64,000 nucleotides of DNA. It comes from Variovorax sp. RA8 (GTDB taxonomy: Bacteria > Pseudomonadota > Gammaproteobacteria > Burkholderiales > Burkholderiaceae_C). The position numbers and the translations under genes were made by a program. Shown here one piece after another: positions 3,224 through 48,063 of this stretch (within the stretch, counting starts at the first letter, position 1; each line of letters begins with the position of its first letter). The stretch is from the NCBI RefSeq assembly GCF_901827175.1, contig NZ_LR594662.1:4402001-4466000 (forward strand), in the 5' to 3' direction. The notes below the pieces were generated by a model. It was given only the letters and a program-made list of their open reading frames with translations. It was not told the origin of the DNA and searched no databases.

Positions 3224-3294
3224 TTTGGTGCGTATCAGGCACCACTGTGCGTCCGTTTGCGAGCCTACCGGCGCCTCCTCTGGCTCTCTACGAT
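3224..3294 (+). promoter_or_regulatory. LysR-box promoter 1 (before MBL hydrolase)
   Basis: A copy of the shared 71-bp promoter. The operator TGGTGC-N7-GCACCA (3226-3244) is a perfect inverted repeat with 6-bp arms and contains T-N11-A, the LysR-type signature. CTACCG lies at 3265-3270, then 18 bp, then TACGAT at 3289-3294. With a start site about 7 bp after the -10, the operator centre falls near -66, the classic LysR recognition position. The downstream gene starts at 3421. The rest of 3065-3420 contains nothing else I recognise. Confidence 0.75.
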
Positions 3295-3420
3295 CAACGG
3301 CATGCGGCCTTCTGCCGTGATCCGGGCCCGACAACGCTTCGGTGTTGAACGGCAAACGTTCTGCCAGCCACCTGGCAGGTTAGGCCCGCGCAACCGGGCC
3401 GCCCTTTTGGAGATTCCGCC

Positions 3421-4338
3421 ATGTCCCCCACAGATGACACCTTGCAACCCACGAGCGAGAAACCCAAAGATCCAGTGCCCTCCCGTTACGCGCTGCGCAT
3501 CGGCGATATCGACGCGCTGGTGGTCAGCGACGGCGTGCTGCCGTTGCCCACCTCGACCATGGCCACCAACGCCGACCCGGCAGATCTGGCGAGCTGGCTG
3601 GATCAGATGTTCATGCCGCCCGACAAGTACGACTGGCCGCTGAACGTGATGGTGGCCCGCAGCGGCGACCAGAACATCCTCATCGACGCCGGCCTGGGCG
3701 GCCAGTTCCCGGGCTTCCCGCGCGCCGGGCAGTTCCCCCAGCGTCTGGCCGCGGCCGGCATCGAACTCGAGTCCGTCACCGACGTGATCTTCACCCACAT
3801 GCACATGGACCACGTGGGCGGGCTGCTCGTTCCCGGCATCAAGGAACGCCTGCGCCCCGACGTGCGCATCCACGTGGCCAAGGCCGAGGTGGATTTCTGG
3901 ATCTCGCCCGATTTCTCCCAGACAGTGATGCCCAAGCCGGTGCCGGAGGTGCTCCGCTCGACTGCCAAGAGCTTCTACAACGAATACCGCGATCGCATCC
4001 AGACATTCGAGGAGCGCCGCGAGGTGGCGCCGGGCGTGGTGGTCCGCCGTACCGGCGGCCACACACCAGGGCACAGCGTGGTCGACCTGGTGTCGGGCGG
4101 TGAGCGCCTGACGTTCGCCGGCGACGCCATGTTCCCCGTCGCGTTCGACCACCCTGACTGGCAGAACGGCTTCGAGCACGACCCGGAGAAAGCGGCCGAA
4201 GTTCGCATCGGCCTCCTGCGCGAACTGGCGCAGACCCGCGGGCTGCTGGTGGCCGCTCACCTGCCCTTCCCTTCCCTTGGCCGGGTGGCGATCGACGGTG
4301 ACATCTTTCGCTGGGTTCCGATCATCTGGGACTACTGA
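3421..4338 (+). CDS. Metallo-beta-lactamase fold hydrolase
   Basis: A 305-residue MBL-fold protein, probably cytoplasmic because no signal peptide is seen. The zinc motif HMHMDHVGG lies near residue 127, followed by GGHTPGHS and the metal-bridging Asp in FAGDAMF. These give the full set of MBL ligands, so it should be a dinuclear hydrolase. The overall layout (an NVMVARSGDQNILIDAGLG strand before the active site) resembles the AHL-lactonase-like and paraoxonase-like MBL group, but the substrate cannot be assigned. It follows LysR-box promoter 1 by about 130 bp and precedes an AhpD-like gene by 126 bp. A detoxifying hydrolase role fits the regulon. Confidence 0.9.
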   Translation: MSPTDDTLQPTSEKPKDPVPSRYALRIGDIDALVVSDGVLPLPTSTMATNADPADLASWLDQMFMPPDKYDWPLNVMVARSGDQNILIDAGLGGQFPGFPRAGQFPQRLAAAGIELESVTDVIFTHMHMDHVGGLLVPGIKERLRPDVRIHVAKAEVDFWISPDFSQTVMPKPVPEVLRSTAKSFYNEYRDRIQTFEERREVAPGVVVRRTGGHTPGHSVVDLVSGGERLTFAGDAMFPVAFDHPDWQNGFEHDPEKAAEVRIGLLRELAQTRGLLVAAHLPFPSLGRVAIDGDIFRWVPIIWDY

Positions 4339-4464
4339 GCGCGGCCTGCGGCGCGCAAGCAGGCTGCCGGCCTGTCGCGCCGCATCGTCGATGCCCAGGA
4401 TTTTTCTTCTCTCTCGCGCTCTTCGCGAACGGGTACCTCAGCCGCACTGAGGGCGGAGCCACAC

Positions 4465-4944
4465 ATGACTCATCGCCTCAACTACATCAAGCAATCGCCC
4501 GAGCTCTTCAAGAAGCTGATCGAGTTCAGCACGCTCGTGGACAACGGCACCATCGAGCAGACCGTTCGGGACCTCGTCGCTATCCGCGCCTCGCAGATCA
4601 ACGGCTGCGCGTTCTGCCTCGACATGCACATCAAGGAAGCAAAGATCCACGGCGAGCGCGAACTGCGCATTCACCATCTGGCTGCATGGCGTGAATCGAC
4701 GCTGTTCGTTCCCCGCGAGCGCGCGGCCCTGGCTTGGACCGAAGTGCTGACCAAGCTGCCCGAGCAAGGCGTGCCCGACGACATCTACGAGCGCGTGCGC
4801 ACACAGCTGTCGGAAAAAGAACTCTCGGACCTGACCTTCAGCGTCATGGCCATCAATGCATGGAACCGCGTGAACGTCGCGTTCCAGACTGTGCCGGGGT
4901 CATCCGACAAGGCCTTCGGCCTGGACAAGGCAAACCTCTCCTGA
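4465..4944 (+). CDS. Carboxymuconolactone decarboxylase / AhpD-like protein
   Basis: A 159-residue AhpD-fold protein. It has the redox motif CAFCLDMH (CxxC followed by the conserved His) near residue 50, and the family text ERELRIHHLAAWRES and ERAALAWTEVLTKL. Proteins of this type act as alkylhydroperoxidases or thiol-dependent peroxide reductases in the cytoplasm. It is a close paralog of the gene at 38478, with roughly three quarters of positions identical by eye, so the two are probably a duplication. Upstream there is only a poor promoter resemblance (CTGTCG-N18-CAGGAT at 4372-4401, no T-N11-A box), so it may be read through from promoter 1. Confidence 0.9.
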   Translation: MTHRLNYIKQSPELFKKLIEFSTLVDNGTIEQTVRDLVAIRASQINGCAFCLDMHIKEAKIHGERELRIHHLAAWRESTLFVPRERAALAWTEVLTKLPEQGVPDDIYERVRTQLSEKELSDLTFSVMAINAWNRVNVAFQTVPGSSDKAFGLDKANLS

Positions 4945-5184: not shown

Positions 5185-5255
5185 ATTGATGCCACTGGCT
5201 CACTGCGGCGTTTCGCTCGACAGGGCTACCGCATCGAGCTGTCGAAACCTAGATT
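5185..5255 (+). promoter_or_regulatory. LysR-box promoter 2 (before GMC dehydrogenase operon)
   Basis: ATTGATGC at 5185-5192 begins the box, and T-N11-A is preserved although the right operator half is poor (TCACTG). CTACCG at 5226-5231 is followed by exactly 18 bp and TAGATT at 5250-5255. All distances equal those of the other ten copies. The first coding start downstream is 5372. Apart from this element I see nothing in 4945-5371. Confidence 0.68.
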
Positions 5256-5371: not shown

Positions 5372-5605
5372 ATGACGAAAAGAATCCTCCTCGCGGCGCT
5401 GCTGGCCGGCCTCACCACATCGATATCGATCTGTGCGATCCAGGCAGCCGGTGCTATCGCGCTTGCGCCGGCGACGGCCGAGGCCCGGGTCGCCAGCACA
5501 TTCCTCTCGCTCGATCTGTCGTATCCGGCGCCCCAGGAGCCTTTGGACCGCACGCCGATCACGCCGACAGAGACGGTAGGCGCCGCGCCCTATGAGCCCT
5601 TCTGA
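5372..5605 (+). CDS. Small exported protein ahead of the GMC dehydrogenase
   Basis: A 77-residue protein of unknown function. The start at 5372 follows a GGAGC ribosome-binding site. An N-terminal hydrophobic segment (KRILLAALLAGLTTSISICA) looks like a signal peptide or single membrane anchor. The remainder is short, Pro- and Thr-rich and without recognisable motifs. It is the first gene after LysR-box promoter 2 and lies 42 bp before the dehydrogenase small subunit. It may therefore be a periplasmic accessory of that complex, but this is inferred from position only. Confidence 0.6.
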   Translation: MTKRILLAALLAGLTTSISICAIQAAGAIALAPATAEARVASTFLSLDLSYPAPQEPLDRTPITPTETVGAAPYEPF

Positions 5606-5647
5606 TCGATGCGTCTGCACGAACTCTGCCCCACGAAGAAAGTCCCC

Positions 5648-6397
5648 ATGTCCCTGATTGACCAAGAGTCCCCCGCGCGACGCCTCTTTCTGCGCCAGAT
5701 CGGCGGCGCTTCCAGCGTTGCAGCGCTGGCGGCACCCGCACTGCTGAGCGGCCTCGGCAGCCCGCTCGCTTCGGCGCAGGGCAGTGCAGCGCAGTCGACC
5801 GATACTGCTCGCTCCACTGGCTACCTGTCGATGGGCCCTCAGGAAGCCGCCTGCGTCGAGGCCCTCGTCAACGTGATGTGCCCGGCCGATGCGATGACAC
5901 CGAATGGCGTCGACTGCGGCTTGCATCTGTACATCGATCACCAGTTGGCCGGCGGCTGGGGGCGTGGCGACCAGCTCTATCGACAAGGCCCTTGGCGCCC
6001 CGGCAAGCCGCAGCATGGCTACCAGTCGCCCCTTACACCCGAGCTGCACTTCAAGGCCGGCCTCGCGGTGCTGCGCCGCGAGACTCTGCAACGCACAGGC
6101 AAAGCCATCGAGCAACTCGAAGCCCGCAGCCTCGACGCCCTGCTGCAGGATGTGGCTGCCGGCCGGATGGACGACGAACACTATGGACTCGGTGCGTGGT
6201 TCAACGACTTTTTCTATCCGCTGTTCGTGCAGGCCTGCTTTGCTGATCCGATGTACGGCGGCAACCGCAACAAGGCCTTTTGGCGCGCAGTTGGCTTCCC
6301 CGGTCTGCCCGCTTTTCACGGGCGGAACGTGGTCCAGTACCGCGGCCTGCCCTTCCCTGGCGCGGCCAAGCCGCAGTCGATCGATGACTTCAGCTGA
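5648..6397 (+). CDS. Gluconate 2-dehydrogenase subunit 3 family protein (dehydrogenase small subunit)
   Basis: A 249-residue exported small subunit. The start at 5648 (MSLIDQESPARRLFLRQIGG) puts a twin-arginine signal, RRLFLRQ, at residues 10-16 before an Ala-rich hydrophobic stretch. The mature part has the subunit-3 features: an EALVNVMCPADAMTPNGVDCG segment early on, and GLGAWFNDFFYPLFVQACFADPMYG late in the protein. In known three-subunit membrane dehydrogenases this chaperone-like subunit carries the folded flavoprotein through the Tat pathway. The order small subunit - GMC flavoprotein - cytochrome c is the standard one. Confidence 0.88.
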   Translation: MSLIDQESPARRLFLRQIGGASSVAALAAPALLSGLGSPLASAQGSAAQSTDTARSTGYLSMGPQEAACVEALVNVMCPADAMTPNGVDCGLHLYIDHQLAGGWGRGDQLYRQGPWRPGKPQHGYQSPLTPELHFKAGLAVLRRETLQRTGKAIEQLEARSLDALLQDVAAGRMDDEHYGLGAWFNDFFYPLFVQACFADPMYGGNRNKAFWRAVGFPGLPAFHGRNVVQYRGLPFPGAAKPQSIDDFS

Positions 6398-6409: not shown

Positions 6410-8170
6410 ATGACTCAAAAACTCCCCAAACGCGCCGTCGTCTTCGTCGGCGGCGGCCTCACCGCCGGCCTGGCGGCGCGGCAGATGATGAATTCCGGCG
6501 TCGACGTGCTGGTGCTCGAGCGCGGTGGCGATCTCGCCGGCAGTGCGGCCGCCACGCTGCCCAACCAGCGTGACGAACTGCGCTGGGGCGTGCGCAACAG
6601 CCTGGTGCAGAACTGGGCCAACGAGACCTACACATTGCGTCATTCAATCAACGAGAGCGCGCTGCCGGTGCGCCGCATGGAAGCCTTCCTCCCCGGCGAA
6701 GGCATGGGCGGCGCTGCCAATCACTGGAACGGACAGACCTGGCGCTGGGCCGAGTACGACCCGGCCCTGCGCACCCGGCTCGAATCGCGCTACGGCAAGG
6801 CGGCGATCCCGCGCGAGATGACGGTGCAGGACTGGGGCGTCAGCTACGCGGAGATGGAGCCGTACCACGATCTGTTCGAGCAGCTCTTCGGCATCGCGGG
6901 GCAGGCCGGCAATGTCGGCGGGCGGCTGATCGAAGGCGGCAACCCCTTCGAGGCCCCCCGAAAACGCGACTTTCCGCAACCCCCGCTCGAGATTCTCGAG
7001 TCGGGCCGCATCTTCAAGACGGCCGCGCAAAGCCTTGGCTACAAACCGTTCCCGTTGCCCGCGGCCAACTCGCCGCGCGCCTACACCAACCCCGATGGCG
7101 CAAGTCTCGCGCCGTGCCAGTACTGCGGTCATTGCGAGCGCTTCATCTGCGAGGCCAATGCAAAGGCCAGCCCGGCAGTGCTGCTGTATCCGCTGCTGCA
7201 GAGGCAACGCAATTTCGAGATCCGTCTTCACTCGCAGGTGACCGGCCTCGTCTACGACAAGCACGCCCGGCGCGTGACCGCCGTGCAGTTCATCGACCTG
7301 CAGACCGCGCAAACGTATGAGCAGCCGGCCGATGTTGTCGTGCTGTCCGGCTTCACCATGACCAACACCAAGCTTCTGCTCACGAGCGGCATCGGGCGCC
7401 CCTATGACCCGAAGACGGGCAAGGGTGTGGTCGGCAAGAACTTCTGCTACCAGGTGATGTCGTCGGTACCGGTGTTCTTCAAGGACCGCTTCATCAATCC
7501 GTTCATGGCGTCGGGCGCCTCGCAGATGGTGGTGGACGAGTTCAACGGCGACAACTTCGACCACGCAGGGCTCGGCTTCTTCGGCGGCGGCTACATCTAC
7601 TCGAACGTGACGAACGGCCGCCCTATCAATTCCCGGCTCCACCCGGCCGGAACGCCCCGCTGGGGATCGGCGTGGAAGCAAGCCAACGCCGACTGGTATG
7701 CGCACGCCTTCAACGTCGCGGTGCACGGCAGCAACTACCCGCACAGCCAGAACTACCTCGACCTCGATCCGACGTACCGCGACGCCTACGGTTTGCCACT
7801 GCTGCGCATGACCTTCAACTTTCACGAGAACGACCACCGGATGAGCGAGTACGTCACGAACAAAGCCGCCGGGATTGCGCGCGCCATGGGTGCCACCGCA
7901 GTCGGTGCACCGCAACCACGGCAAGGCGACTTTGATACGCGCCAATACCAGACAACGCACACCACGGGTGGAACGATCATGGGCGCCGACCCCACAACGA
8001 GCGTGGTGTCGCCGCGGCTTCAGCACTGGGATGCGCAGAACCTCTTCGTGGTTGGCGCCTCTGTCTACACACACAACGCGGGATACAACCCCACGGGTCC
8101 CCTCGCGGCATTGGCGCTGCGCCTGGGCGATGACCTGGTGCGCTATGCAAAGCAGCCGCGCATGCTTTGA
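6410..8170 (+). CDS. GMC-family FAD-dependent dehydrogenase large subunit
   Basis: A 586-residue flavoprotein of the gluconate/sorbitol/alcohol dehydrogenase GMC type. The N-terminal FAD-binding fold begins at VVFVGGGLTAGLAARQMM, and the GMC hallmark GEGMGGAANHWNGQTWR follows near residue 95. A C-terminal NPTGPLAALALRLGDDL segment closes the FAD site. A Cys-rich segment, CQYCGHCERFICEANAK (near residues 236-252), suggests an iron-sulfur cluster as in related dehydrogenases. It lacks its own signal and should be co-exported with the small subunit. Electrons would pass to the cytochrome encoded next. The substrate, a sugar acid, polyol or alcohol, cannot be read from the sequence. Confidence 0.9.
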   Translation: MTQKLPKRAVVFVGGGLTAGLAARQMMNSGVDVLVLERGGDLAGSAAATLPNQRDELRWGVRNSLVQNWANETYTLRHSINESALPVRRMEAFLPGEGMGGAANHWNGQTWRWAEYDPALRTRLESRYGKAAIPREMTVQDWGVSYAEMEPYHDLFEQLFGIAGQAGNVGGRLIEGGNPFEAPRKRDFPQPPLEILESGRIFKTAAQSLGYKPFPLPAANSPRAYTNPDGASLAPCQYCGHCERFICEANAKASPAVLLYPLLQRQRNFEIRLHSQVTGLVYDKHARRVTAVQFIDLQTAQTYEQPADVVVLSGFTMTNTKLLLTSGIGRPYDPKTGKGVVGKNFCYQVMSSVPVFFKDRFINPFMASGASQMVVDEFNGDNFDHAGLGFFGGGYIYSNVTNGRPINSRLHPAGTPRWGSAWKQANADWYAHAFNVAVHGSNYPHSQNYLDLDPTYRDAYGLPLLRMTFNFHENDHRMSEYVTNKAAGIARAMGATAVGAPQPRQGDFDTRQYQTTHTTGGTIMGADPTTSVVSPRLQHWDAQNLFVVGASVYTHNAGYNPTGPLAALALRLGDDLVRYAKQPRML

Positions 8171-8856: not shown

Positions 8857-11580
8857 ATGAAGCCCGAGGAGTCACCTGACCTGGCGTCGGCAGAAGTCCG
8901 GTGGTACTTCGGCGTTTTCGTTCTCTGGGAAGCACAGCGCCGACTTGAGCGCGCCGGCGAGGCCGTGCGGCTGGGGCCGCGCTCTTTCGATCTGCTGTTG
9001 CAATTGATCAAGCGCGCCGGCGAGTTCGTGAGCAAGGACATCCTGCTCGCAGCGGTCTGGGCGGGCGTGGTGGTCGAAGAAGCCAGCGTGCGTGTCCACA
9101 TTTCCACGCTCCGCAAGACGCTCGGGGAACCGGGCGAGAGCGACGAATGCAAGGAGTGGATCTCCAACTTTCCGCTGCGCGGCTACCGCTTCAATGGGCG
9201 TGTCCGGCGCGAGACGACCGGCATCTGGACCAAGCCCGTGGCGTCACTGCCCGATCCTGGTTTCACGCCGCTGCCGGTTCGGCTGACCGAGCTTGTCGGT
9301 CGCGAAGCCGATGTGGCGGGCGTTCTCGAATCGCTCGAAACCCACCGGCTGGTCACGATTGCAGGCACGGGCGGCATCGGCAAGACCCGGCTCGCGATCC
9401 ACGTGGCGCAGAACCATCAGAAGCGACACGGCACGGAGATCGCCTTCACCGATCTGTCGTCGCTGATTTCCCAGGATCACGTGCTCGGCACGTTGGCACG
9501 CGCTGTGGGGGTGCCCGCCGACCTGCCGAACATCGTCGGAGCCATCACTCAGCGGCTGGCGGGGCGCGCCGTGCTGCTGTTGATTGACAACTGCGAGCAC
9601 GTGGTGGATTCCCTGGCGCCGCCGGTCGACGGCCTGCTTTCCGTGCTCCCCGGCTTGCGCATCCTCGCGACCAGCCGTGAGGCGCTTCGCGTGGCGGGCG
9701 AGTATGTCTTCCGATTGCCCGCGCTTGCGATTCCGCACGTCGAGCAGATCTCGCTTACGCAGGCGCTGCACTGGCCATCCGTCGAATTGCTTGTGGAACG
9801 GGCCAAGGCTGCGGGTGCGGGTGCGTTCGACGAGTCGCATGGCCCTCTGCTGGCCCAGATCACCAGGCAGGTCGACGGCATTCCCTTGGCGATCGAACTG
9901 GTGGCCGCGCGCCTGGGCGTCCAACCGGTTGCCGATCTGGCGCGCAGGCTGGACGACCACATGCGCCTCTATGCCTACAGCCGCGCCGCGCTCGCACGGC
10001 ACCGAACGCTCGCCGCGGCGCTGGACTGGAGCATCGCGTTGCTGAGCGATACGGAACTGCGGCTCTTTCGCTGGTTGTCGGTGTTCCGCGGCCGGTTCGA
10101 TGTCGAATCCGCGCTCGGCGTGAGTGCCGGCGGCATGGACACCGAGGTGGCATTCGACGCTCTGATCTCGCTGGTCAACAAGTCGCTGGTCTTCTTCGAC
10201 AGCAGCGACGCTGTTGCGCCCTACCGGCTGCTGGACACGACGCGAAGCTATGCCGCCGCGCTTCTCGCGCAGAGCGACGAACGACCCGCATTGCTGCGGC
10301 GCCATGCGATGCTCATGCGCGATCTCATGAAGGCCGCGGCGGCGGAACTCTCGGACCTGACCGAGCAGGCCTGGGCTGATCGATACGCGCACCGCCTGGA
10401 CGACGTGCGCTTTGCACTCGAAGTCTGCCTCACGCAGCAACCCGACGCGAAGATGGCCGCCTCGCTGGTCACGGCTTCCGCACCCTTGTGGTTTCACCTG
10501 GCCCAGGTCGTGGAATACCGCGACCGCGTCTCCGCAGCGCTAGCGCTGGTCGATCGGCAACCCACGCGCGACACGGAAACGGCGACCTGGCTGAACACGG
10601 CACTGGTCAGCGCCCTGCTCCACACCGGCAGGTCCTCGCCCGAGCTTGGGGCCGCCGCGGACCAGGCCCTGGCCGGCGCGCTTGCCGTCAAGATCCCCGT
10701 GCTGGAACTGCAAGCGCGCTGGGGCCGGTGCACGCACGACATGTTCCGCGGCGAGTATTCGGCGGCCTTGGATCAGGCGCACACGCTGATGGCGGCCGCA
10801 CAATCCTGGTCTGATCCCGCCGCGCTCAATCTCGCTCACCGCGTGATGGCGATGGCCAACCACTTTTGCGGCCACTTCGGTGTGGCAAGAATGCACAGCG
10901 AAGCCTCCGTGCGCGTGGGCGGCGGCCTGGGCCATGCCCGGGCCAACATGGTGGGAGTGAACGCCATCGTTGCGGCAAAAGCCATGCTGAGCCGAACGCT
11001 GTGGGTGCAGGGGGAAACGGCCAGGGCCCTCGAAGAGGCCAGCGACGCGGTGGACCGCGCGCAAGCGGCCGGAAAGTCCGTCTCTTTGTGCTCCGCGCTG
11101 TATGGTGCCTGCCCGGTCGCCCTGTGGGCCGGCGAACTCGAGCTTGCCGCCCAATGGATTCACTTGATGACGGACGAAGCACAGCGTAAGGGCCTGGTGG
11201 GCTGGCTGCGCTATGCCGAGTGGTTCTCACAGGGGCTGCAGTTGGGCATCGCGCCGGACCGGGACCTTTACGTACGCGAGGTGGCCGACCAGCTCGCGAC
11301 CTATGACGCCCCTCACCGGGAAATGCTCGCGACCTTCTGCGTCGACTGGGTCGACGACGAGATGATCGAGCGCGTCTCGCGCGGAGACAGTCCCTGGGTC
11401 GCCGCCGAGGTCTGGCGCGCCGCCGGATGGCGCGCGGCGCAAAGCGCTGCACTTGACGAGGCCGAGGTCTTCTACCTCCGGGCCATCGAAACCGCCAAGC
11501 GACAGGGTGCCGTCGCCTGGGAACAGCGCGCCACATTGGCACGTACCTGCCCGCCAGGCGCCCGGCCGGTTCAACGCTGA
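8857..11580 (+). CDS. Winged-helix STAND ATPase regulator A
   Basis: A 907-residue multidomain regulator. Residues about 10-105 form an OmpR/PhoB-type winged helix (RSFDLLLQLIKRAGEFVSK, then the recognition helix EEASVRVHISTLRKTLG and the wing FPLRGYRFNG). A STAND/NB-ARC NTPase follows with Walker A AGTGGIGKT near residue 170, Walker B AVLLLIDNCEHV and the sensor segment RILATSREALR. From about residue 400 the protein is helical and TPR-like. Such proteins use ATP-driven assembly on ligand binding to activate transcription. It is the closest paralog of the gene at 18091. Compared with that protein the C-terminus lacks about 40 residues, and it ends tail-to-tail with, and overlapping by 10 bp, the gene at 11571. 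Confidence 0.88.
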   Translation: MKPEESPDLASAEVRWYFGVFVLWEAQRRLERAGEAVRLGPRSFDLLLQLIKRAGEFVSKDILLAAVWAGVVVEEASVRVHISTLRKTLGEPGESDECKEWISNFPLRGYRFNGRVRRETTGIWTKPVASLPDPGFTPLPVRLTELVGREADVAGVLESLETHRLVTIAGTGGIGKTRLAIHVAQNHQKRHGTEIAFTDLSSLISQDHVLGTLARAVGVPADLPNIVGAITQRLAGRAVLLLIDNCEHVVDSLAPPVDGLLSVLPGLRILATSREALRVAGEYVFRLPALAIPHVEQISLTQALHWPSVELLVERAKAAGAGAFDESHGPLLAQITRQVDGIPLAIELVAARLGVQPVADLARRLDDHMRLYAYSRAALARHRTLAAALDWSIALLSDTELRLFRWLSVFRGRFDVESALGVSAGGMDTEVAFDALISLVNKSLVFFDSSDAVAPYRLLDTTRSYAAALLAQSDERPALLRRHAMLMRDLMKAAAAELSDLTEQAWADRYAHRLDDVRFALEVCLTQQPDAKMAASLVTASAPLWFHLAQVVEYRDRVSAALALVDRQPTRDTETATWLNTALVSALLHTGRSSPELGAAADQALAGALAVKIPVLELQARWGRCTHDMFRGEYSAALDQAHTLMAAAQSWSDPAALNLAHRVMAMANHFCGHFGVARMHSEASVRVGGGLGHARANMVGVNAIVAAKAMLSRTLWVQGETARALEEASDAVDRAQAAGKSVSLCSALYGACPVALWAGELELAAQWIHLMTDEAQRKGLVGWLRYAEWFSQGLQLGIAPDRDLYVREVADQLATYDAPHREMLATFCVDWVDDEMIERVSRGDSPWVAAEVWRAAGWRAAQSAALDEAEVFYLRAIETAKRQGAVAWEQRATLARTCPPGARPVQR

Positions 11581-14279
11581 CCCGTTCTGGCGCGAAACTC
11601 TTCCAGCGTCTGCGCTGCACGCAGTTCCCAGGCGAATGCGCCTTGCGAGCGTGCGAGGGCATGGGCCTGCAAATAAAGTGCCTGGGCTTGCGCGGCATCG
11701 CCCAGCAGTTCCTTGCGCCGCCCGGCGGCACGGTAGACCTCGGGAGCGCTCCACTGGCCTTCGCCCTGCATCGCGCGAGCCACCAGGTGATCGTCCACCC
11801 ACCGGTCGCAGAACGTGACCATCATTTCCCTGCGGGGCTCATCCATGACCAAAACCTTTGCCGCGACGGCATCGATGTGCGCGCTGGCGTCGTCGACCTC
11901 ACCGAGCTTCATGGCGTCGTCGTAGCAAAGGGCCCAGTCATGCCAGTAGGCAAAGCCCTTGGAACGGGTCTGCTGCAACATCGTGTCGACCCAGGCGCGC
12001 GCTGCCGGTTGTTCGCCGGCCCATATGGCCATCGGACAGATCCAGAAGAGCGCAACGCACAGCGACAGTGCGTGCCCTAGTGCCTCCGCCTCCTGCATGC
12101 ACCGGACGGCAGTGGTCATGGCGAGACGGCTCTCGCCCTGGATCCACAGGGTCCTGGCAAGAATGGCCACGGCGGTGGTGCGTGCGTCGGGCTGGAACGC
12201 GTTGACATGGTTGCGCCGGATCGCCTCGTCCACATCCGCCGCCGCTTCGGCGTGCATCCTGGCCTGGGCGAACACGCCGCAGAAGTGACTGGCGAGCGCC
12301 AGCATCCGGTGCGACAGGTTGCGCGTCACGGCGTTGGTCGAGTGGCTCGCGAATTCGCTCAGGATCTCGGCATGCCGCAACGCTGGTGGGTACGCGCCGC
12401 GCGTGACGTTCAGTGCGCAAAGGCCCCACCGAGCCTGGAATTCGAGCGTCTTCATCTTGAATTCCAGTGCGCAATCCAGCGCCCGCTCGCACGCCTGTGT
12501 CATCTCCGGCACCGTGCCGCCGGTATGCCACAGCGCGTTGTAGAGCGCGATCTCCAGCCGCCCGGCCGTCAGGCGGTCGGGTACCTTCAGCGAATCGACG
12601 TGGTCCAACGCCGCCCGTACACGATCCCGGTATTCGCTGACCTCGGACAGGCGAAACCACAGCGGCGCCGATGCGACAGTGAGCGCACCCGCGATCGTCA
12701 TGTCGTCGTGGTGGCCGATACAAGCGTCCAGCGCCGCGCGAACGTCGTCCAGGGAGCCGCGGTAGCGCTGCGTCCAGGCATCTGCGTCCAGCGACGCGAG
12801 CTCCGCGGTGGCAATGCCCATGAGGTCCAGCATGAAAAGGGCATGGCTTTTCGACACCGCGTCTTTCTCGCCCGCCCGCACCAGCAGCGCGTGCGCATAG
12901 CTGCGGGTGGTATCGAGCAGGCGGTAGGGCGAGTCCGCGGCCTGATCGGTGTCGTAGACGACGAGCGACTTGCTGGCCAAGCTCAGCAACGCATCGGACG
13001 CCACGTCTGGGTCCAGCGCACTTGCTGCCACGCTCAGCGCCGCCGCGGCGCCGAAGTAAGCGCGGAACACCGACAACCTGCGGAACAGAAGCAGCTCGGC
13101 ATCGCCCAGCAGGCCGATGCTCCAGTCCAGCGTCGCAGCCAGTGTGCGTTGTCTTGCCAGCGCAGCCCGCCTGGCCGTCGAATGCAGGCGCATGTGATCG
13201 TCGAGTCTGAATGCCAGCTCGCTCACGGGTTGTGCACCCAGGCGGGCCGCGACCAACTCAATCGCCAGCGGGATGCCGTCCACCTGCTGGCAGATCCTGG
13301 TCAGCGGACCGCTGCTTGCGTCATCGAATCCGCGGGCCCCCGCGGCCTCGGCCCTCTCGACGAGCAACTGAACCGCCGGCGAGCGCAACGCATGCTCCAG
13401 GGAATCGGGCTGGGACTGCTGGACCGCCAGGGGCATCAAGCGAAAGACATGTTCGCCCCCCACGCGAAGCACCTCGCGGCTGGTGGCAAGGACCCGCAAC
13501 CCGGGCAACGCGGCCAGGAATCTACCCAGGAGCGGCGACAGCCTCTCGATGACATGTTCGCAGTTGTCCACGAGCAGCAACATCGCCCGGTCTTCGAGGC
13601 GTTGGACCATGGCTTCTTCGATGTCCGACACACCGCCTCGCACGCCGATGGCGCGCGCCATGGTCGTCAGCACGTGGTCCTGTGAGGTCAGCGGCGCGAG
13701 ATCGACGAAACAGACCTGAGCGTGCGGCGGCCTTTCCGGATAGCGCGCGGCCACGCAGACGGCAACGCTGGTCTTGCCCACGCCGCCGGGTCCGGCGACC
13801 GTGACCAGCCTGCTCGCCGCGAGCATGCCGAGCAGGCGCTCGATCTCTGCCTCGCGCCCCACGAGCCTGGAGAAGCGAGCGGGCAACCCGGCCGGCGCAT
13901 CCCCCAGCGACGCATGGGCTACTTGCGTCACGGCAGCGGACGGCACGAACTCGCAGTGCACCCGCCCCAGGAAGCGATAACCGCGCAATGGGATGTTGGC
14001 GATCCATTCCAGGCACCCGTCCTGAGCACCGGGCCGACCCAAGGCCTTGCGCAGGATCGACATATGGACTCGAACGCTCGCCTCCTCGACCACCGTGTCA
14101 GGCCAGACCGCCGCGAGCAGCTCGTCCTTGCTGATTACTTCGCCAGCGCGACCCACGAGTGCGACCAGCAGGCCGAGGGCACGCGACCCGAGCCGCACCG
14201 GCTGCCCTTCGCGCTCGAGCCTTGGCTCGGCTTCCGACAGTGCGAAGGCACCGAAGCGCCACCGGCGACTCTCAGACAC
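11571..14279 (-). CDS. Winged-helix STAND ATPase regulator B
   Basis: A 902-residue paralog of the genes at 8857 and 18091 on the opposite strand, starting with GTG at 14279. Domain order is the same: winged helix with recognition helix EEASVRVHMSILRKALG, NTPase with Walker A AGPGGVGKTS and Walker B AMLLLVDNCEHV, the sensor RVLATSREVLR, then TPR-like helices. The recognition helix is almost identical to those of the two paralogs, so all three may bind the same operator. It is the third gene of an operon with two LuxR-type regulators; its start overlaps the stop of the preceding gene by 8 bp. The C-terminus stops at the same point as regulator A, short of the extra TPR region in regulator C. 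Confidence 0.88.
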   Translation of the reverse strand: MSESRRWRFGAFALSEAEPRLEREGQPVRLGSRALGLLVALVGRAGEVISKDELLAAVWPDTVVEEASVRVHMSILRKALGRPGAQDGCLEWIANIPLRGYRFLGRVHCEFVPSAAVTQVAHASLGDAPAGLPARFSRLVGREAEIERLLGMLAASRLVTVAGPGGVGKTSVAVCVAARYPERPPHAQVCFVDLAPLTSQDHVLTTMARAIGVRGGVSDIEEAMVQRLEDRAMLLLVDNCEHVIERLSPLLGRFLAALPGLRVLATSREVLRVGGEHVFRLMPLAVQQSQPDSLEHALRSPAVQLLVERAEAAGARGFDDASSGPLTRICQQVDGIPLAIELVAARLGAQPVSELAFRLDDHMRLHSTARRAALARQRTLAATLDWSIGLLGDAELLLFRRLSVFRAYFGAAAALSVAASALDPDVASDALLSLASKSLVVYDTDQAADSPYRLLDTTRSYAHALLVRAGEKDAVSKSHALFMLDLMGIATAELASLDADAWTQRYRGSLDDVRAALDACIGHHDDMTIAGALTVASAPLWFRLSEVSEYRDRVRAALDHVDSLKVPDRLTAGRLEIALYNALWHTGGTVPEMTQACERALDCALEFKMKTLEFQARWGLCALNVTRGAYPPALRHAEILSEFASHSTNAVTRNLSHRMLALASHFCGVFAQARMHAEAAADVDEAIRRNHVNAFQPDARTTAVAILARTLWIQGESRLAMTTAVRCMQEAEALGHALSLCVALFWICPMAIWAGEQPAARAWVDTMLQQTRSKGFAYWHDWALCYDDAMKLGEVDDASAHIDAVAAKVLVMDEPRREMMVTFCDRWVDDHLVARAMQGEGQWSAPEVYRAAGRRKELLGDAAQAQALYLQAHALARSQGAFAWELRAAQTLEEFRARTGQR

Positions 14280-17139: not shown

Positions 17140-17210
17140 ATGCTAGGTTTCGCATCTCGGTTGCGGTAGGCATGCCGCAGGTACTGCCGTGTTGCATGCC
17201 CGGCATCAAT
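17140..17210 (-). promoter_or_regulatory. LysR-box promoter 3 (before small membrane protein)
   Basis: On the minus strand: ATTGATGC (17210-17203), right half GCAACA giving TGATGC-N7-GCAACA, CTACCG at 17169-17164, 18 bp, then TAGCAT at 17145-17140. Spacing is identical to the other copies. The target is the gene starting at 17061. Confidence 0.72.
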
Positions 17211-21126: not shown

Positions 21127-22170
21127 ATGACAACTTCTGCCCTTCCTTCGCCCTCTTCCATCCCCCTCGCGCCACGCGCAGACCCGCTGGCCTCCAGCTT
21201 CGCCACCAGCTATGCCGGGGTGGTTGCCTTCATTGCCGTTGTCACGGAAGGCAGCTTTGCACGGGCCGCGGATCGACTGGGCATCGGCCGCTCCGCCGTG
21301 AGCCGCAGCGTCCAGAAGCTGGAAGACCAGCTGAACGTCCGGCTCTTCCTGCGCACCACGCGAAGCACCACGCTCACGCGCGAAGGCGACCTCTTCTACG
21401 CCAATTGCCACACCGGCGTCGACCGGATCGTCCAGGCGGTCGAAGAAATGCGGGACCTGCGGCAAGGCCCGCCCCGCGGGCACCTGCGCATCAACGCCGC
21501 AGTCGGGTTCGGCCGCCGGGTCGTCGCGCCGCTGCTGGGCGAGTTTCGCGCAACCTACCCCGAGGTCACCATCGACCTGTTGCTGAACGACAAGCCGACC
21601 GACTTCACCTCCGACCGGGTGGACATCGCGTTTCGCAACGGCCGCATGGAAGACGCCCAGATCATCGCCAAGCAGATCATCCCCATGCAGTTGCTGCTGT
21701 GCGCCTCACCCGCCTACCAGGCAGCCCACGGGCTGCCCGACAGCGTGGAAGCCCTGGCCGGGCACGAGTGCATCAACTTCCGCTTTTCATCCGGCCGGAT
21801 CTTCGAGTGGGAGTTCAAGGTCGGGGGGCAGCCACGCAAGCTCGTGCCCCAGGCCAAGCTCACCTACAACGATGCGGACCTGGTGCTGCAGGCCGTGCTC
21901 GACGGCCACGGCATCGCCCAGCTGCCAGGCTACCTGGCGTGCGAGGCGCTCAGGACCGGTGCGCTTGTCCCGTGCCTGACCCAGTATGCGCCCGACGACA
22001 GCGGCCATTACATCTGCTATCTGAGCCGCCAGCACCTGCCTTCGCGCATGCGCGTGTTCATCGACTTCATGACCTCGAAGATTCGGGCCGCCGACCTGGA
22101 TTGCCTCACCGACCTCAGCCCGAAGCTGCAGGCCGAGGCCGGGATTGGTGCCGACGCGACAACAGCGTGA
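21127..22170 (+). CDS. LysR-family transcriptional regulator (candidate master regulator)
   Basis: A 347-residue LysR-type protein; start at 21127 (MTTSALPSPSS), with an unusual 30-residue N-terminal tail before the winged helix (VVAFIAVVTEGSFARAADRL, GRSAVSRSVQKLEDQL). It belongs to the large CrgA/AphB-like branch. The effector domain ends normally. Its 3' end contains LysR-box promoter 4, so the box is encoded within its last codons and drives the hydrolase operon downstream. It is preceded by the TTRAC repeats. Its central position among the boxes makes it the best candidate for the regulator that binds them. That assignment is inference; the LysR protein at 42559 is the alternative. Confidence 0.88.
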   Translation: MTTSALPSPSSIPLAPRADPLASSFATSYAGVVAFIAVVTEGSFARAADRLGIGRSAVSRSVQKLEDQLNVRLFLRTTRSTTLTREGDLFYANCHTGVDRIVQAVEEMRDLRQGPPRGHLRINAAVGFGRRVVAPLLGEFRATYPEVTIDLLLNDKPTDFTSDRVDIAFRNGRMEDAQIIAKQIIPMQLLLCASPAYQAAHGLPDSVEALAGHECINFRFSSGRIFEWEFKVGGQPRKLVPQAKLTYNDADLVLQAVLDGHGIAQLPGYLACEALRTGALVPCLTQYAPDDSGHYICYLSRQHLPSRMRVFIDFMTSKIRAADLDCLTDLSPKLQAEAGIGADATTA

Positions 22171-22214
22171 GTCCCTGCGCAGGCCTACTCCCTCGCCTTC
22201 GGCGAACCTAGCAT
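22144..22214 (+). promoter_or_regulatory. LysR-box promoter 4 (before haloperoxidase-like hydrolase operon)
   Basis: ATTGGTGC at 22144-22151, right half ACAACA, CTACTC at 22185-22190, 18 bp, TAGCAT at 22209-22214. The first 27 bp lie inside the 3' end of the LysR coding region. The first downstream gene starts at 22290. Confidence 0.75.
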
Positions 22215-25133: not shown

Positions 25134-25204
25134 ATTGGTGCCTTGCAGACAACGCCGTGCTCCCTCTCGCATACCTACCGCTGAGGGCCGGCCGTTCCTA
25201 GGAT
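25134..25204 (+). promoter_or_regulatory. LysR-box promoter 5 (before exported beta-propeller-like protein)
   Basis: ATTGGTGC at 25134-25141, right half ACAACG, CTACCG at 25175-25180, 18 bp, TAGGAT at 25199-25204. The target gene starts at 25240 after AAGGAG. Confidence 0.75.
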
Positions 25205-26475: not shown

Positions 26476-26478
26476 GCC

Positions 26479-29816: not shown

Positions 29817-29887
29817 ATCGTAGAAGCACCTCGCCGACCGCGGTAGGTGCCATGGCGTGACTGCGGTGTTGCCCTGCGCGCACCAAT
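29817..29887 (-). promoter_or_regulatory. LysR-box promoter 6 (leftward, now without an intact gene)
   Basis: Minus strand: ATTGGTGC (29887-29880), right half GCAACA, CTACCG (29846-29841), 18 bp, TACGAT (29822-29817). It fires leftward toward 29690-29812. There about 45 codons read like protein (NPDTWSTHAAYRAGESDSD) before the antisense of the MFS remnant begins. I think its former gene was cut by the deletion that also damaged the transporter. It is divergent from promoter 7 with 21 bp between the two boxes. Confidence 0.68.
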
Positions 29888-29908
29888 GCGTCGCGCACCG
29901 TCACCGCG

Positions 29909-29979
29909 ATTGGTGCGCCGGTGACAACACGGTGCACCCCGACACAGGCCTACCGCCTCTGCGCACGCCTGCCTAGCAT
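29909..29979 (+). promoter_or_regulatory. LysR-box promoter 7 (before GST-WrbA operon)
   Basis: ATTGGTGC at 29909-29916, right half ACAACA, CTACCG at 29950-29955, 18 bp, TAGCAT at 29974-29979. It is back-to-back with promoter 6. The target is the GST gene at 30079 and the six or more genes behind it. Confidence 0.75.
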
Positions 29980-34421: not shown

Positions 34422-34492
34422 ATTGGTGCCTTGCAGACAACACCGTGATCCATCGCACAGGCCTACCGCACCCCATGACCCGATCCTACGAT
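34422..34492 (+). promoter_or_regulatory. LysR-box promoter 8 (before exported cupin)
   Basis: ATTGGTGC at 34422-34429, right half ACAACA, CTACCG at 34463-34468, 18 bp, TACGAT at 34487-34492. It is nearly identical to promoter 5 over the first 28 bp. The target starts at 34522, only 29 bp after the -10. Confidence 0.76.
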
Positions 34493-34521: not shown

Positions 34522-34941
34522 ATGGTCAAGATCGCAAGAAGCCTCGGGCTCACATTCCTGCTCGCCGCAGGCGCTGCCCTGTCACAGCACGCCGCCGCGC
34601 ACGGCGGGCCCAAGGACGCCAAGGTGACGCCGCTGCTGACCCAGGAGATGAAGGACATCCCCGGCAAGGAAGTGCTGATGATCACGGTAGACTATCCGCC
34701 CGGCGCCGCCGACCCCGTGCATCGTCATGACGCCCACAGCTACGTGTACGTGCTCGAAGGCTCGATCGTGATGGGCGTCAAAGGCGGCAAGGAAGTCACG
34801 CTCAAGCCCGGCGACACGTTCTACGAAGGCCCCGACGACATCCACACCGTCGGGCGCAACGCAAGCAAGACCAAACCTGCGAAGTTCGTCGTCATGCTCG
34901 TGAAGAACAAGGGCGCCGAGTTCTTCATTCCAGTGAAATAA
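34522..34941 (+). CDS. Exported single-domain cupin protein
   Basis: A 139-residue protein; the start at 34522 gives a signal peptide (KIARSLGLTFLLAAGAALSQ, cleavage near AAAHGG). The mature part is one cupin: the first motif AADPVHRHDAHSYVYVLEGS supplies two or three His ligands and the Glu, and the second is KPGDTFYEGPDDIHTVGRN. It should bind a divalent metal in the periplasm. Exported cupins of this size are often found with oxidative-stress genes, but no reaction is established. It has its own LysR-box promoter immediately upstream. Confidence 0.82.
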   Translation: MVKIARSLGLTFLLAAGAALSQHAAAHGGPKDAKVTPLLTQEMKDIPGKEVLMITVDYPPGAADPVHRHDAHSYVYVLEGSIVMGVKGGKEVTLKPGDTFYEGPDDIHTVGRNASKTKPAKFVVMLVKNKGAEFFIPVK

Positions 34942-35164: not shown

Positions 35165-36064
35165 ATGAAACTCTTCTACATGCCAGGCGCCAGTGCGCTG
35201 GCCGATCACATCGTGCTCGAGTGGTCCGGCCAGCCGTACGAGACGGTACGCATGGACCGCCGCAGCATCAAGACGCCGGAGTACCTGGCACTCAACCCGA
35301 CGGGCACTGTGCCGCTGCTCGTGCATGGCGACTTCACGCTGACCGAGAACGTCGCCATCCTTGGCTACCTTGCGGACCTGCATCCGCAACTGCAGCTGGC
35401 TGGCGACGGGTCGCCGCGCGCACGGGCGGAGGTGATGCGCTGGCTCGGTTTCCTGAACTCCGATGTGCACAAGGCGTTCAGGCCGATCTTCTTTCCCGAG
35501 CGCTACCTGCCGGACGACGGCCAGGCGGCGCGACTGGCTGCCACGGCGCGCAGCCACGTGCGCGAGTACCTCGCGCGGCTCGATGCGCAACTCGCCGGAC
35601 GCGCATGGCTCACGGGCCAGCGCTCCATCGCCGACGCCTATCACTTCGTGATGCTGCGCTGGGCCATCGGCACGAAGGTCGGACTGCACGGCTTCGACCA
35701 GCTGACGGCCTTCGTTCGCCGCATGCATGCCGATGAAGGCGTGCATGCGGCGCTCGTGATGGAGGAAGGCCTGGCGCCGCATACCCAGCATGCGCGCAGC
35801 GCCCCGGATCAGCTGATGCGCCTGAACGAACGGATCCGCGACAACCTGGCCACCACGCTGACCGCCGAAGTGGTCGGCGTGGTCGAGTACAGCGAAGGCG
35901 ACGGCCCCGAGCTCGAAGTGCGCCGTGGTCTCGTGCAGGTCGAAGTCGCCCGGATGGACACGGTCTTCAGCTGGCAGGATGAGAACTACCGCGCGCAGGC
36001 GGCCATCCCATTCCAGAACTTCTCCCGTTATGTCAGCAACGGCGCGATCCGGCTCGACCTGTAG
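35165..36064 (+). CDS. Glutathione S-transferase with extra C-terminal domain
   Basis: A 299-residue protein. Residues 1-200 form a GST like the one at 30079 ([53 protein letters not shown]), but position 10 is Ser-Ala rather than Cys, so the catalytic residue differs. Residues about 205-299 are an extension not found in ordinary GSTs: a helix ([20 protein letters not shown]) then a small beta domain ([19 protein letters not shown] through [19 protein letters not shown]). The latter resembles a small stand-alone protein fused on. No LysR box precedes it; the upstream region holds only the 13-bp inverted repeat. Role: conjugation or reduction of electrophiles, with the extension of unknown use. 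Confidence 0.88.
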
Positions 36065-36074
36065 CCCCCCGTCC

Positions 36075-36780
36075 ATGACCCCAGCGCCCGCCCCCTCCGC
36101 GCTGTCTGCGCCCGTAGCACGTGAGTCGATGGACTACGACGTCGTCATCGTGGGCGGTGGTCCCGCCGGCATGGCGGCGGCCATCCGGATCAAGCACATC
36201 GATGCGAGCCTCTCGGTCGCGGTGCTTGAAAAAGGCAGCGAGCCCGGTGCGCACACGCTCTCAGGGGCGGTGATGGACCCTGGCGCCATCGACGAGGTGC
36301 TGCCCGAGGTGTGGGCCGCGACGGCGAGCCGACAGCCGCGTTCCAGCATGCCCAAGCTGGGCATTGCCGCGCCGCCATGGACGCTGCACAACACGCGCCC
36401 GGACCATGCGAGCCTGCGGCCCGCGGACCAATGCGAGCCCATCGCCTATCCGAAGCCGGACGGCGTGCGCAGCTTCGACCGCCTGAGCTCGGTCTATCTG
36501 AGCAACACGCACCATGCGGAAGACCAGCCGGTGCACCTGACGCTGCGCGATGCGGCGGTGCCGGTCGACGTCCACCTGCGCGTGTACGCCGGCCCCGAAA
36601 ACCGCTACTGCCCCGCCGGCGTCTACGAGTTCCTCCAGAACGACAAGGGCGAGGACCGGCTGCAGATCAATGGGCAGAACTGCATCCATTGCAAGACACT
36701 GCGACATCAAGGACCCGACCCAGAACATCGTGTGGAACGCACCCGAAGGCGGCGACGGTCCCACCTATGCATCCATGTAG
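36075..36780 (+). pseudogene. Electron-transfer flavoprotein-ubiquinone oxidoreductase with large deletion
   Basis: The N-terminal FAD-binding fold is readable ([36 protein letters not shown]). Then about 300 residues, the ubiquinone-binding centre, are missing. Text resumes with [20 protein letters not shown] and the C-terminal ferredoxin-like region (YCPAGVYEF, then [11 protein letters not shown]). An extra A near 36701 shifts the frame just after CIHCKT; the true continuation [20 protein letters not shown] ends with TYASM and a stop at 36778-36780. Both the deletion and the frameshift inactivate it. ETF-QO normally passes electrons from ETF to the quinone pool at the inner membrane. Confidence 0.82.
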
Positions 36781-36869
36781 ATCGACCTGTTCGCCGCCGG
36801 CGAACGCCAAGGAGCCCATGCCATGAAGATCCCCTTCCTCTTGTCACCGTCCCAGGCGCAGGTGCACGC

Positions 36870-37127
36870 ATGACCGCCGGCTGCGCGCACTTGGCCCAGA
36901 TCCGCCCCGTCACGCCGAACACCAATGGATGCGAGGAATGCCTGCGCACCGGCGGCCGCTGGGTTCACTTGCGCATGTGCCTGACCTGCGGGCACGTCGG
37001 GTGTTGCGACTCGTCGCAGGGAAAGCACGCGACCGGGCATTTCCACGAGACCGGCCACCCGGTCGCGCAGTCTGTAGAGCCCGGCGAATCCTGGCGATGG
37101 TGTTATGTCGACAAGCAGCTCGTCTGA
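36870..37127 (+). CDS. UBP-type zinc finger domain protein
   Basis: An 85-residue protein that is almost entirely a UBP-type zinc finger: [40 protein letters not shown] and [10 protein letters not shown] give the spaced Cys and His ligands, and SWRWCYVD closes the domain. In eukaryotes this domain binds the ubiquitin C-terminus; free-standing bacterial copies are of unknown function and often lie near redox genes. The start overlaps, as an ATGA, a 16-codon frame from 36823 ([16 protein letters not shown]) that is probably a remnant. It precedes the peroxiredoxin by 49 bp and may be transcribed with it. Confidence 0.82.
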
Positions 37128-38320: not shown

Positions 38321-38391
38321 ATTGTTGCGCGAGGGGCAACACCGTGAAGCCTTGCGCGTGGCTACCGGTCGCGACCTCCCAAACCTACGCT
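38321..38391 (+). promoter_or_regulatory. LysR-box promoter 9 (before AhpD-catalase operon)
   Basis: ATTGTTGC at 38321-38328; the operator TGTTGC-N7-GCAACA (38323-38341) is a perfect inverted repeat. CTACCG at 38362-38367, 18 bp, TACGCT at 38386-38391. The target gene starts at 38478. Confidence 0.76.
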
Positions 38392-38477: not shown

Positions 38478-38957
38478 ATGACCCAACGTGTCAACTATGT
38501 CGAGCAGTCGCAAGAACTCTTCAAGAAGTTCGTCGAGTTTCTCAATGCCATCAAGGAGGGCGCGATCGAAGAGCCGCTTCGCAACCTCGTGTCGATCCGC
38601 ACGTCGCAGCTCAACGGCTGCACCTTCTGCCTGGACATGCACGTCAAGCAGGCCAAGATCCAGGGCGAGCGCGAGCTGCGCCTGTACCACCTGGCCGCAT
38701 GGCGCGAATCGACGCTGTTCATCCCGCGCGAGCGTGCGGCACTGGCCTGGACCGAAGTGCTGACCAAGCTGCCCGAGCAAGGCGTGCCCGACGACATCTA
38801 CGAGCGGGTGCGCACACAGCTGTCGGAAAAGGAAATCTCCGACCTCACCTTCCTGGTCATGTCGACGAACGCCTGGAGCCGTCTGAACATCGCCTTCAAG
38901 AGCGTGCCCGGCGCCTCCGACAAGGTCTTCGGCCTGGACAAGGCGAAGCTCGCCTGA
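38478..38957 (+). CDS. Carboxymuconolactone decarboxylase / AhpD-like protein
   Basis: A 159-residue AhpD-fold protein with CTFCLDMH (CxxC plus His) near residue 50 and the Glu-rich WRESTLFIPRERAALAWTEV helix. It is a near duplicate of the gene at 4465. It begins with MTQRVNYVEQSQELFKKFVE and ends DKVFGLDKAKLA. Expected role: thiol-dependent reduction of organic peroxides. It is the first gene of a five-gene oxidative-stress operon (AhpD, NAD(P)-binding protein, YceI, Ohr, catalase) behind LysR-box promoter 9. Confidence 0.92.
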   Translation: MTQRVNYVEQSQELFKKFVEFLNAIKEGAIEEPLRNLVSIRTSQLNGCTFCLDMHVKQAKIQGERELRLYHLAAWRESTLFIPRERAALAWTEVLTKLPEQGVPDDIYERVRTQLSEKEISDLTFLVMSTNAWSRLNIAFKSVPGASDKVFGLDKAKLA

Positions 38958-44337: not shown

Positions 44338-44766
44338 TCAGGCCTGAGCCACGGTGCGCGGAGGGAGAAATCCCTTCGCGTGGGCCAGGTCAGGCCACGG
44401 CATCACGGTTTCGCCGGCGACCAGCCACTTGCCGTCCGTGCGCCGAAGCCGCAGCTCGTAGAGCGCCGGATCAGCGTTCTGGCTCATGCGCCGAAAGAGG
44501 ATCGCGGTGGCTTCATCGCCCTGCTCCTCGATGTGCAGGATGCGTTTTTCCGTCGACAGCGGCGCCTCGCCCGCATCGCGACGGCTTCTGAATTCGGCCA
44601 TCATCTCCGACTTGGAAAAACGTGCGATCTCTCCCTGGGGCGTCAGTACCAGGAAGCCGAGGTCTTCGGTGTAGAGCGCTTCCATTTCATCCATCCGGTA
44701 GTGGCTTCCGGTGTCGGCGAGCACGTCGATGAAGGCAATGATGTCGGGATGGTGAGATTGAGGCAT
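44338..44766 (-). CDS. SnoaL-like (NTF2-fold) protein
   Basis: A 142-residue NTF2-like protein. The start at 44766 (MPQSHHPDIIAFIDVLADTG) is required because the promoter's -10 at 44849-44854 rules out upstream starts. The fold is indicated by EALYTEDLGFLVLTPQGEIA and the SKSEMMAEFRSRRDAGEA helix, followed by strands ILHIEEQGDEATAILFRRM and KWLVAGETVMPW. NTF2-like proteins of this type are small-molecule isomerases, cyclases or binding proteins; no catalytic residue can be fixed here. LysR-box promoter 10 stands directly upstream. Confidence 0.82.
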   Translation of the reverse strand: MPQSHHPDIIAFIDVLADTGSHYRMDEMEALYTEDLGFLVLTPQGEIARFSKSEMMAEFRSRRDAGEAPLSTEKRILHIEEQGDEATAILFRRMSQNADPALYELRLRRTDGKWLVAGETVMPWPDLAHAKGFLPPRTVAQA

Positions 44767-44848: not shown

Positions 44849-44919
44849 ATCGTAGGAAGGGCTGCGTCGCTGCGGTAGGTCCGCGCAGGGACGCGTGCTG
44901 ATTCCGTTCCGGCATCAAT
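44849..44919 (-). promoter_or_regulatory. LysR-box promoter 10 (before SnoaL-like gene)
   Basis: Minus strand: ATTGATGC (44919-44912), right half GAATCA giving TGATGC-N7-GAATCA, CTACCG (44878-44873), 18 bp, TACGAT (44854-44849). It lies in the 162-bp gap after the acyltransferase gene. Confidence 0.7.
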
Positions 44920-47824: not shown

Positions 47825-47867
47825 GGTTCGTGTACTCGGGGGCTTGCTGGATCGGCGGCGGGTGGCG

Positions 47868-47897
47868 ATGTTAGGGCATTGCTGCGTCACCGACAGT
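47868..47897 (-). promoter_or_regulatory. Promoter of CocE gene, degenerate regulon type
   Basis: Minus strand: ACTGTC (47897-47892), 18 bp, TAACAT (47873-47868), start of the gene at 47824. The geometry equals that of the LysR-box promoters, but the operator region (47938-47918) has lost T-N11-A symmetry. Possibly a drifted member. Confidence 0.4.
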
Positions 47898-47992
47898 CCT
47901 TCGCACGACAAACGTTGTGCGCCGGAAAGTACACCCGGTCCGACGCTGTCTTGTGACTGCGTTTGGCGAATGCGTACCGCGCCACCGAACCG

Positions 47993-48063
47993 ATTGATGT
48001 CCGTCGCTCAACACGGTGCGGCCTCTCGCGCGGCTAGTGGCAGACCTCGCCGGAACCTACGAT
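47993..48063 (+). promoter_or_regulatory. LysR-box promoter 11 (upstream of small frame and GST operon)
   Basis: ATTGATGT at 47993-48000, right half TCAACA, CTAGTG at 48034-48039, 18 bp, TACGAT at 48058-48063. The next intact gene is the GST at 48350, which also has its own promoter and operator. A short frame at 48153 lies between. Confidence 0.68.

Follow-up and report, generated by a model that had tools for sequence, protein, structure and literature searches.

The stretch of Variovorax sp. RA8 that we analysed (64,000 nucleotides, which we call the window) contains twelve predicted promoters with a shared 71-bp layout and a gene for a LysR-type regulator, which is probably the activator of all of them. 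The regulator gene (21127..22170, + strand) has an in-frame ATG at 21127 and encodes 347 aa. Within 21220-22170, its product matches HTH_1 (72.6 bits) and LysR_substrate (133.1 bits) from Pfam, both above the cut-offs. We will call this protein LysR 21127. Each predicted promoter consists, in order, of ATTGRTGC, 6 bp, a GACAACACCGTG-like 12-mer, 14 bp, CTACCG, 18 bp, and TANNNT. The 64-kb window contains no Rfam family at gathering score and no tRNA.

The first site (3224..3294, +), a perfect dyad, precedes a metallo-beta-lactamase-fold gene (3421-4338) and then a carboxymuconolactone decarboxylase (CMD) gene (4465-4944). The site at 5185..5255 (+), which has a divergent second element, precedes an ORF (5372-5605) that is followed on the same strand by a gluconate 2-dehydrogenase subunit 3-like gene (5609-6397) and a GMC oxidoreductase gene (6410-8170). 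On the minus strand, the site at 17140..17210 lies before an ORF (17061-16717) and an alpha/beta hydrolase gene that ends at 15765. The site at 22144..22214 (+) overlaps the 3' end of the LysR gene and precedes an alpha/beta hydrolase gene (22290-23258), and the site at 25134..25204 (+) precedes an ORF (25240-26475) whose 411-aa product has no Pfam match. Two sites are divergent partners: 29817..29887 (-) has no evident same-strand gene directly downstream, and 29909..29979 (+) precedes a glutathione S-transferase (GST) gene (30079-30711), with WrbA-like, pirin, and OsmC genes following in the same direction. The site at 34422..34492 (+) precedes a cupin gene (34522-34941) and then a GST gene (35165-36064). 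Another perfect dyad, at 38321..38391 (+), precedes a CMD/AhpD-like gene (38478-38957), which is followed by NmrA-like, YceI, and catalase genes. The site at 44849..44919 (-) precedes an ORF (44766-44338) whose 142-aa product has no Pfam match, and the site at 47993..48063 (+) precedes a GST gene (48350-49039). The twelfth site (50097..50167, +) was absent from the original prediction and has only small ORFs downstream.

Ten of the eleven sites that were originally listed have same-strand ORFs downstream, and the first genes behind the sites include two alpha/beta hydrolases and two GSTs. Farther downstream, and in the same direction, are the WrbA-like, pirin, OsmC, peroxiredoxin, NmrA-like, YceI, and catalase genes; the operons may extend this far, with these genes cotranscribed from the sites. 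The site at 29887(-) faces an MFS-like gene, and the substitution pattern there is that of coding on the + strand. The two boxes in 29817-29979 are divergent and 22 bp apart, and the minus-strand box is retained in relatives despite having no evident gene; it may serve for cooperative binding with its partner 22 bp away. Divergent pairs of sites are also found in relatives. Besides 29887(-), only one of the twelve sites in the window, 50097(+), lacks a clear gene. It is possibly a relict promoter, and 50097-50500 is possibly the remnant of a lost target gene. The regulon model makes it likely that the uncharacterised proteins encoded at 25240-26475 and 44338-44766 belong to a single stress response.

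Extraction of the sequence at the coordinates of the eleven listed sites reproduced the positions, the strands, and every distance in 11 of 11 cases. All eleven also carry the T (position 6) and the A (position 18) of T-N11-A, and both of the perfect dyads that had been claimed are present (TGGTGC-N7-GCACCA at 3226 and TGTTGC-N7-GCAACA at 38323). The second elements at 5185 (CTCACTGCGGCG) and 44919 (GGAATCAGCACG) diverge more than the original prediction implied. When each of the eleven sites was left out and scored with a weight matrix built from the other ten, the scores ranged from 24 to 67 bits. After the window had been shuffled 40 times in a way that preserved 2-base blocks, no score exceeded 10.1 bits. 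In a weight-matrix scan of the window, the only other match above 2.6 bits was the twelfth site, 50097(+), at 25 bits. We also varied the spacing of the elements within the window. With the true spacing there are 10 exact and 12 one-mismatch sites. Among the 342 variants, one, in which CANC is shifted by 3, retains 5 exact and 11 one-mismatch sites; this test is weak for the CANC gap because CAACAC half-matches itself.

The consensus of the dyad is TGKTGC-N7-GCAACA, which contains T-N11-A. The centre of the dyad is at position 12 and the -10 element occupies positions 66-71. If transcription starts 7 bp after the -10, then the dyad is centred at about -66, and the operator centre given in the original prediction (about 66 bp before the presumed start) agrees with the spacing of the sites. 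The usual sites for LysR activators are near -65 and -35. Around the putative activation element, positions 30-31, 37-38, and 42-47 are conserved; these are loosely dyad-like, and a second dyad is not clear. CTACCG overlies the -35. Information content is low in both the 6-bp spacer and the 17-bp spacer that precedes the -10.

The original prediction described a scattered regulon, but the sites are clustered in one locus. When we searched the genome (7,424,241 bases in 4 contigs) for the architecture with at most one mismatch, all 12 of the 12 matches were inside the window. Four further matches, all outside the window, have 2 mismatches each, and a reversed-pattern control gave 0 matches in the whole genome. 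Rather than being placed at random in the genome, the motif is confined to about 47 kb (3224-50167). With an RBS-only pattern and up to 2 mismatches, we found 11 matches (9 in the window and 2 elsewhere), and the reversed control gave 2.

Within the genus, the motif is present in 23 of 100 Variovorax genomes, including RA8. A family-level search found it in 4 of 299 genomes and 2 of 141 genera, and two of the four genomes were Variovorax (RA8 and one other). A class-level search with a stricter pattern found it in 1 of 369 genomes, namely RA8 itself. A scan of a named genome collection yielded 58 pattern matches in 54 stretches, of which 15 are from Variovorax and 39 are from other genera: Achromobacter, Paraburkholderia, Burkholderia, Caballeronia, Cupriavidus, Bordetella, Advenella, Rhizobacter, Stenotrophomonas, Luteibacter, Luteimonas, Rhodanobacter, Dyella, and Nannocystis.

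The pattern for the collection scan included the dyad and CTACCG and left out the -10. Of the 40 matches outside Variovorax, 38 have a -10 at the same position, as do all 18 of the Variovorax matches; some of these 58 matches come from close relatives, so not all of them are independent. None of the other offsets from 56 to 79 has more than 2 matches. The fixed position of the -10 is the strongest independent support for the architecture being a promoter. A logo of 98 distinct sites from outside Variovorax shows the same blocks, with frequencies of 0.96 for the T and 1.00 for the A of T-N11-A; since the matrix was used to select these sites, the logo is not independent. In two relatives (L107 and L111), an additional LysR box precedes a gene for a histidine-kinase-like ATPase. 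The counterpart in the window, between 17775 and 18082, has no box, and its spacer is about 300 bp, versus more than 700 bp in the two relatives.

Which regulator binds these sites? The window encodes three LysR proteins (at 365, 21127, and 42559), three winged-helix/AAA proteins (8857, 11571, and 18082), two LuxR-type regulators (14272 and 14766), an AraC-type regulator (27948), and an ArsR-type regulator (48957). We profiled LysR 21127, LysR 42559, and the winged-helix/AAA protein 18082 across the genus. Homologues of LysR 21127 (E ≤ 1e-100) are present in 24 of the 100 Variovorax genomes, and these include all 23 genomes with the motif (Fisher p 1e-21). The 24th genome has the LysR homologue and, within the 39 kb around it, no cluster genes or sites. 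More broadly, a homologue of LysR 21127 was found at E ≤ 1e-90 in 45 of the 45 motif-bearing genomes that were searched, including Nannocystis (these come from 47 loci, of which two share one genome and one, L036, was left out of this search). As a base rate, 8 of 300 genomes from the order, including RA8, have a homologue at the stricter threshold of E ≤ 1e-100.

We also compared the genes of the window to the 39 stretches from outside Variovorax, which are up to 8 kb in length, and required at least 50% identity over at least 90 residues. A homologue of LysR 21127 is present in 27 of these stretches. NmrA, CMD, and cupin genes are present in 26, 23, and 20 of them, and since these accompany the motif nearly as often as LysR does, linkage alone is no proof of regulation. 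Because co-occurrence is unavoidable for genes within a single cluster, the distant loci weigh more. Two stretches (L029 and L042) contain the motif and no relative of any of the window genes tested.

Loci that were picked by LysR alone provide the converse comparison. Among nine such loci from the order, outside RA8, seven have a site of at least 20 bits. Both of the loci from one genome (G594) have the LysR homologue and no site in the stretches scanned (13.7 and 19.9 kb). Among 12 plasmid loci, which are a selection from 24 plasmid records that spans species, nine have a site of at least 25 bits and 11 have one of at least 15 bits. One plasmid locus (L131) has no site, with a best score of 10.8 bits, even though NmrA, catalase, and hydrolase genes adjoin its LysR gene. 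Where the LysR gene lies beside CMD, cupin, or ABH-MBL-SDR genes, the sites precede those genes in most of the loci examined. In Bordetella sp. BOR01 (L067) and Burkholderia sp. WSM2230 (L069, whose genome was taken, from its accession, to be that of L068), the sites lie beside cluster genes and the LysR homologue is on another contig. This arrangement is as would be expected of a trans-acting regulator.

The original prediction offered LysR 21127 and LysR 42559 as candidates. LysR 21127 fits, and its co-occurrence with the motif is better than that of the other regulators compared; together with the dyad at about -66, this favors a LysR-type reading. The genus profile and the comparison to the 39 stretches disfavor both LysR 42559 and the winged-helix/AAA proteins. 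As for LysR 365 and the LuxR-type, AraC-type, and ArsR-type regulators, none has a relative with at least 50% identity over 90 residues in the 39 stretches from outside Variovorax.

The alternative that survives best, which we nevertheless consider very unlikely, is that a winged-helix/AAA (STAND-like) regulator binds the sites and that LysR is a mere neighbour. There are three such genes within the cluster, at 8857-11580(+), 11571-14279(-), and 18082-20961(+), and each encodes a regulator of about 900 aa with an OmpR-type winged helix and an AAA/STAND-like ATPase. The protein at 18082 has homologues (E ≤ 1e-150) in 18 of the 23 motif-bearing Variovorax genomes (Fisher p 2e-13), and relatives of this family lie near sites in Luteimonas and Rhodanobacter (beyond 8 kb in both) and in genome G641 (L096). 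On the other hand, 18082 falls below the threshold in five of the 23 genomes with the motif and is present in two genomes without it. Each of the three proteins, when used as a query, has a match in just 1 of the 39 motif stretches (up to 8 kb) from outside Variovorax; this is probably a single protein, because the three queries match one another. Also, OmpR-type winged helices usually use direct repeats, whereas the operator is an inverted T-N11-A dyad.

Another alternative is that CTACCG/CTASNAT is the promoter of an alternative sigma factor and that a different protein uses the upstream dyad. Within the window, conservation of the -35-like CTACCG almost equals that of the -10, and its sequence is unlike TTGACA. 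But TANNAT at 18-bp spacing fits sigma-70, and a LysR activation element would be expected to show conserved bases over the -35. The joint occurrence of the dyad and CTACCG elsewhere is no independent test, because both are in the search pattern. We think that an alternative sigma factor is even less probable than a winged-helix regulator.

We would give still lower odds to binding by LysR 42559. It is a LysR family member inside the cluster, all 14 of the Variovorax genomes that have it (E ≤ 1e-100) carry the motif (Fisher p 2e-11), and it has relatives near sites in Rhodanobacter (49% identity, beyond 8 kb) and at plasmid locus L126 (57%). Yet it is missing at that threshold from 9 of the 23 genomes with the motif, none of the 39 stretches from outside Variovorax has a relative at 50% identity or above, and it is 33% identical to LysR 21127. 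Least probable of all is that recombination or a mobile element recently multiplied one promoter into the twelve sites, which would then have no common regulator: the sites do share their architecture within one locus and include divergent pairs, but a recently copied block would be conserved throughout, and here the 6-bp and 17-bp spacers carry little information while conservation of the separated blocks extends to other families.

Given the sites, their spacing, their confinement within the genome, their conservation, and their statistical tie to LysR 21127, we propose that the twelve sites are activator-dependent promoters of one regulon under LysR 21127 (probability about 0.88). T-N11-A is the box of the LysR family, whose members are described in part of PMC5002191 as binding neighbouring sites as dimers of dimers. 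By analogy, a dimer of dimers of LysR 21127 would bind the recognition dyad at about -66, and the less conserved activation element would reach over the non-consensus -35 (CTACCG). Inducer-bound LysR would be held where sigma-70 RNA polymerase is recruited to a good -10 (TANNAT), and the operons for detoxification of peroxides, quinones, and electrophiles would then be switched on. The combination of a poor -35 and a good -10 argues for activation rather than repression. The functions of the targets suggest that the inducers are peroxides, quinones, or electrophiles.

Classical LysR regulators usually control one divergent promoter pair, whereas LysR 21127 seems to act on about ten transcription units within a single cluster. 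The best match to LysR 21127 among PDB sequences is 3hhg (E 9e-45). This is CrgA of Neisseria meningitidis, a LysR family member that is described, in the part of PMC6422896 that we consulted, as binding T-N11-A at the crgA/mdaB promoter. The resemblance to CrgA is limited to homology over most of the protein; the neighbourhood differs, and the targets appear to differ as well. (mdaB is a quinone reductase gene.) In the portions of the literature searched for CrgA, we found a description of neither the operator of LysR 21127 nor a multi-promoter cluster. The best NCBIfam model for LysR 21127 is YafC (NF040888), and we ruled out this assignment since the score of 206 bits is far below the curated cut-off of 470.

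PA2206 of Pseudomonas aeruginosa is also a LysR-type regulator with oxidative-stress targets, and has a box (ATTGCCTGGGGTTAT) next to the -35; we compare it by its description only. That box is a different one, and clustered targets are not described in the excerpt of PMC3557286 that covers PA2206. The promoters of OxyR, CatR, and OccR resemble the ones in the window in having a T-N11-A box and dimers of dimers on adjoining sites, as described in part of PMC5002191. As far as the excerpts show, a Variovorax paper (PMC9115942) concerns the protocatechuate pathway and PMC7464077 concerns hypochlorite responses in general. In the open-licence literature searched, we found no description of this gene set (carboxymuconolactone decarboxylase, cupin, and NmrA) under a LysR regulator, and no described regulon with this box, as the original prediction had claimed. 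LysR regulons are well known as a kind; this member appears to be undescribed. For an apparently uncharacterised LysR subfamily, the analysis thereby predicts the operator, the promoter layout, and the targets, all of which can be tested.

Several cysteines of LysR 21127 are conserved. In an alignment of 53 rows (LysR 21127 from the window, the copy from its own genome, and 51 further sequences), Cys is invariant at C94 and C297 (all 53 rows) and is found at C192 in 50 rows, at C215 in 51, and at C283 in 47. Seven columns are mostly Cys; LysR 42559 has a different residue at five of them and a gap at the other two. This difference is only a lead, because it comes from a pairwise alignment at 33% identity. 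The homologues of LysR 21127 from Luteimonas, Rhodanobacter, and Nannocystis are 81%, 75%, and 70-71% identical to it. In the genome searches, homologues from Burkholderiales outside Variovorax were at most 71% identical. A protein search found homologues in Xenophilus (83%) and Aquabacterium (80%), so closer relatives exist within the order, and the case for transfer is weakened. Horizontal transfer is suggested chiefly by the homologues in Nannocystis and Luteimonas, and may have occurred.

As a tentative idea, which we consider possible and rather unlikely, LysR 21127 could be a cysteine-based sensor of electrophiles or oxidants that heads a horizontally mobile detoxification module. A minimal set of CMD, cupin, LysR, and NmrA genes, with the operators, would have spread across Burkholderiales, Xanthomonadales, and Nannocystis, and then expanded in Variovorax until about ten operons shared the box. 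Should sensing rest on redox or electrophile chemistry, LysR 21127 would be a detoxification regulator, distinct from OxyR, in soil and plant-associated bacteria. The dense cluster, under a single proposed regulator and with operators that recur outside the genus, is also a good system for studying how a regulon grows by adding operons.

Two other features of the window may be of interest. The ORF at 35925-37127(+) has a partial match to ETF-ubiquinone oxidoreductase (FAD, Fer4_ETF_QO) and then a zf-UBP zinc finger, which looks like an unusual combination. Adjoining the cluster, and without the box, are molybdenum hydroxylase-type genes at 53884-58426(-) and a Rieske ring-hydroxylating oxygenase gene at 60398-61708(+).
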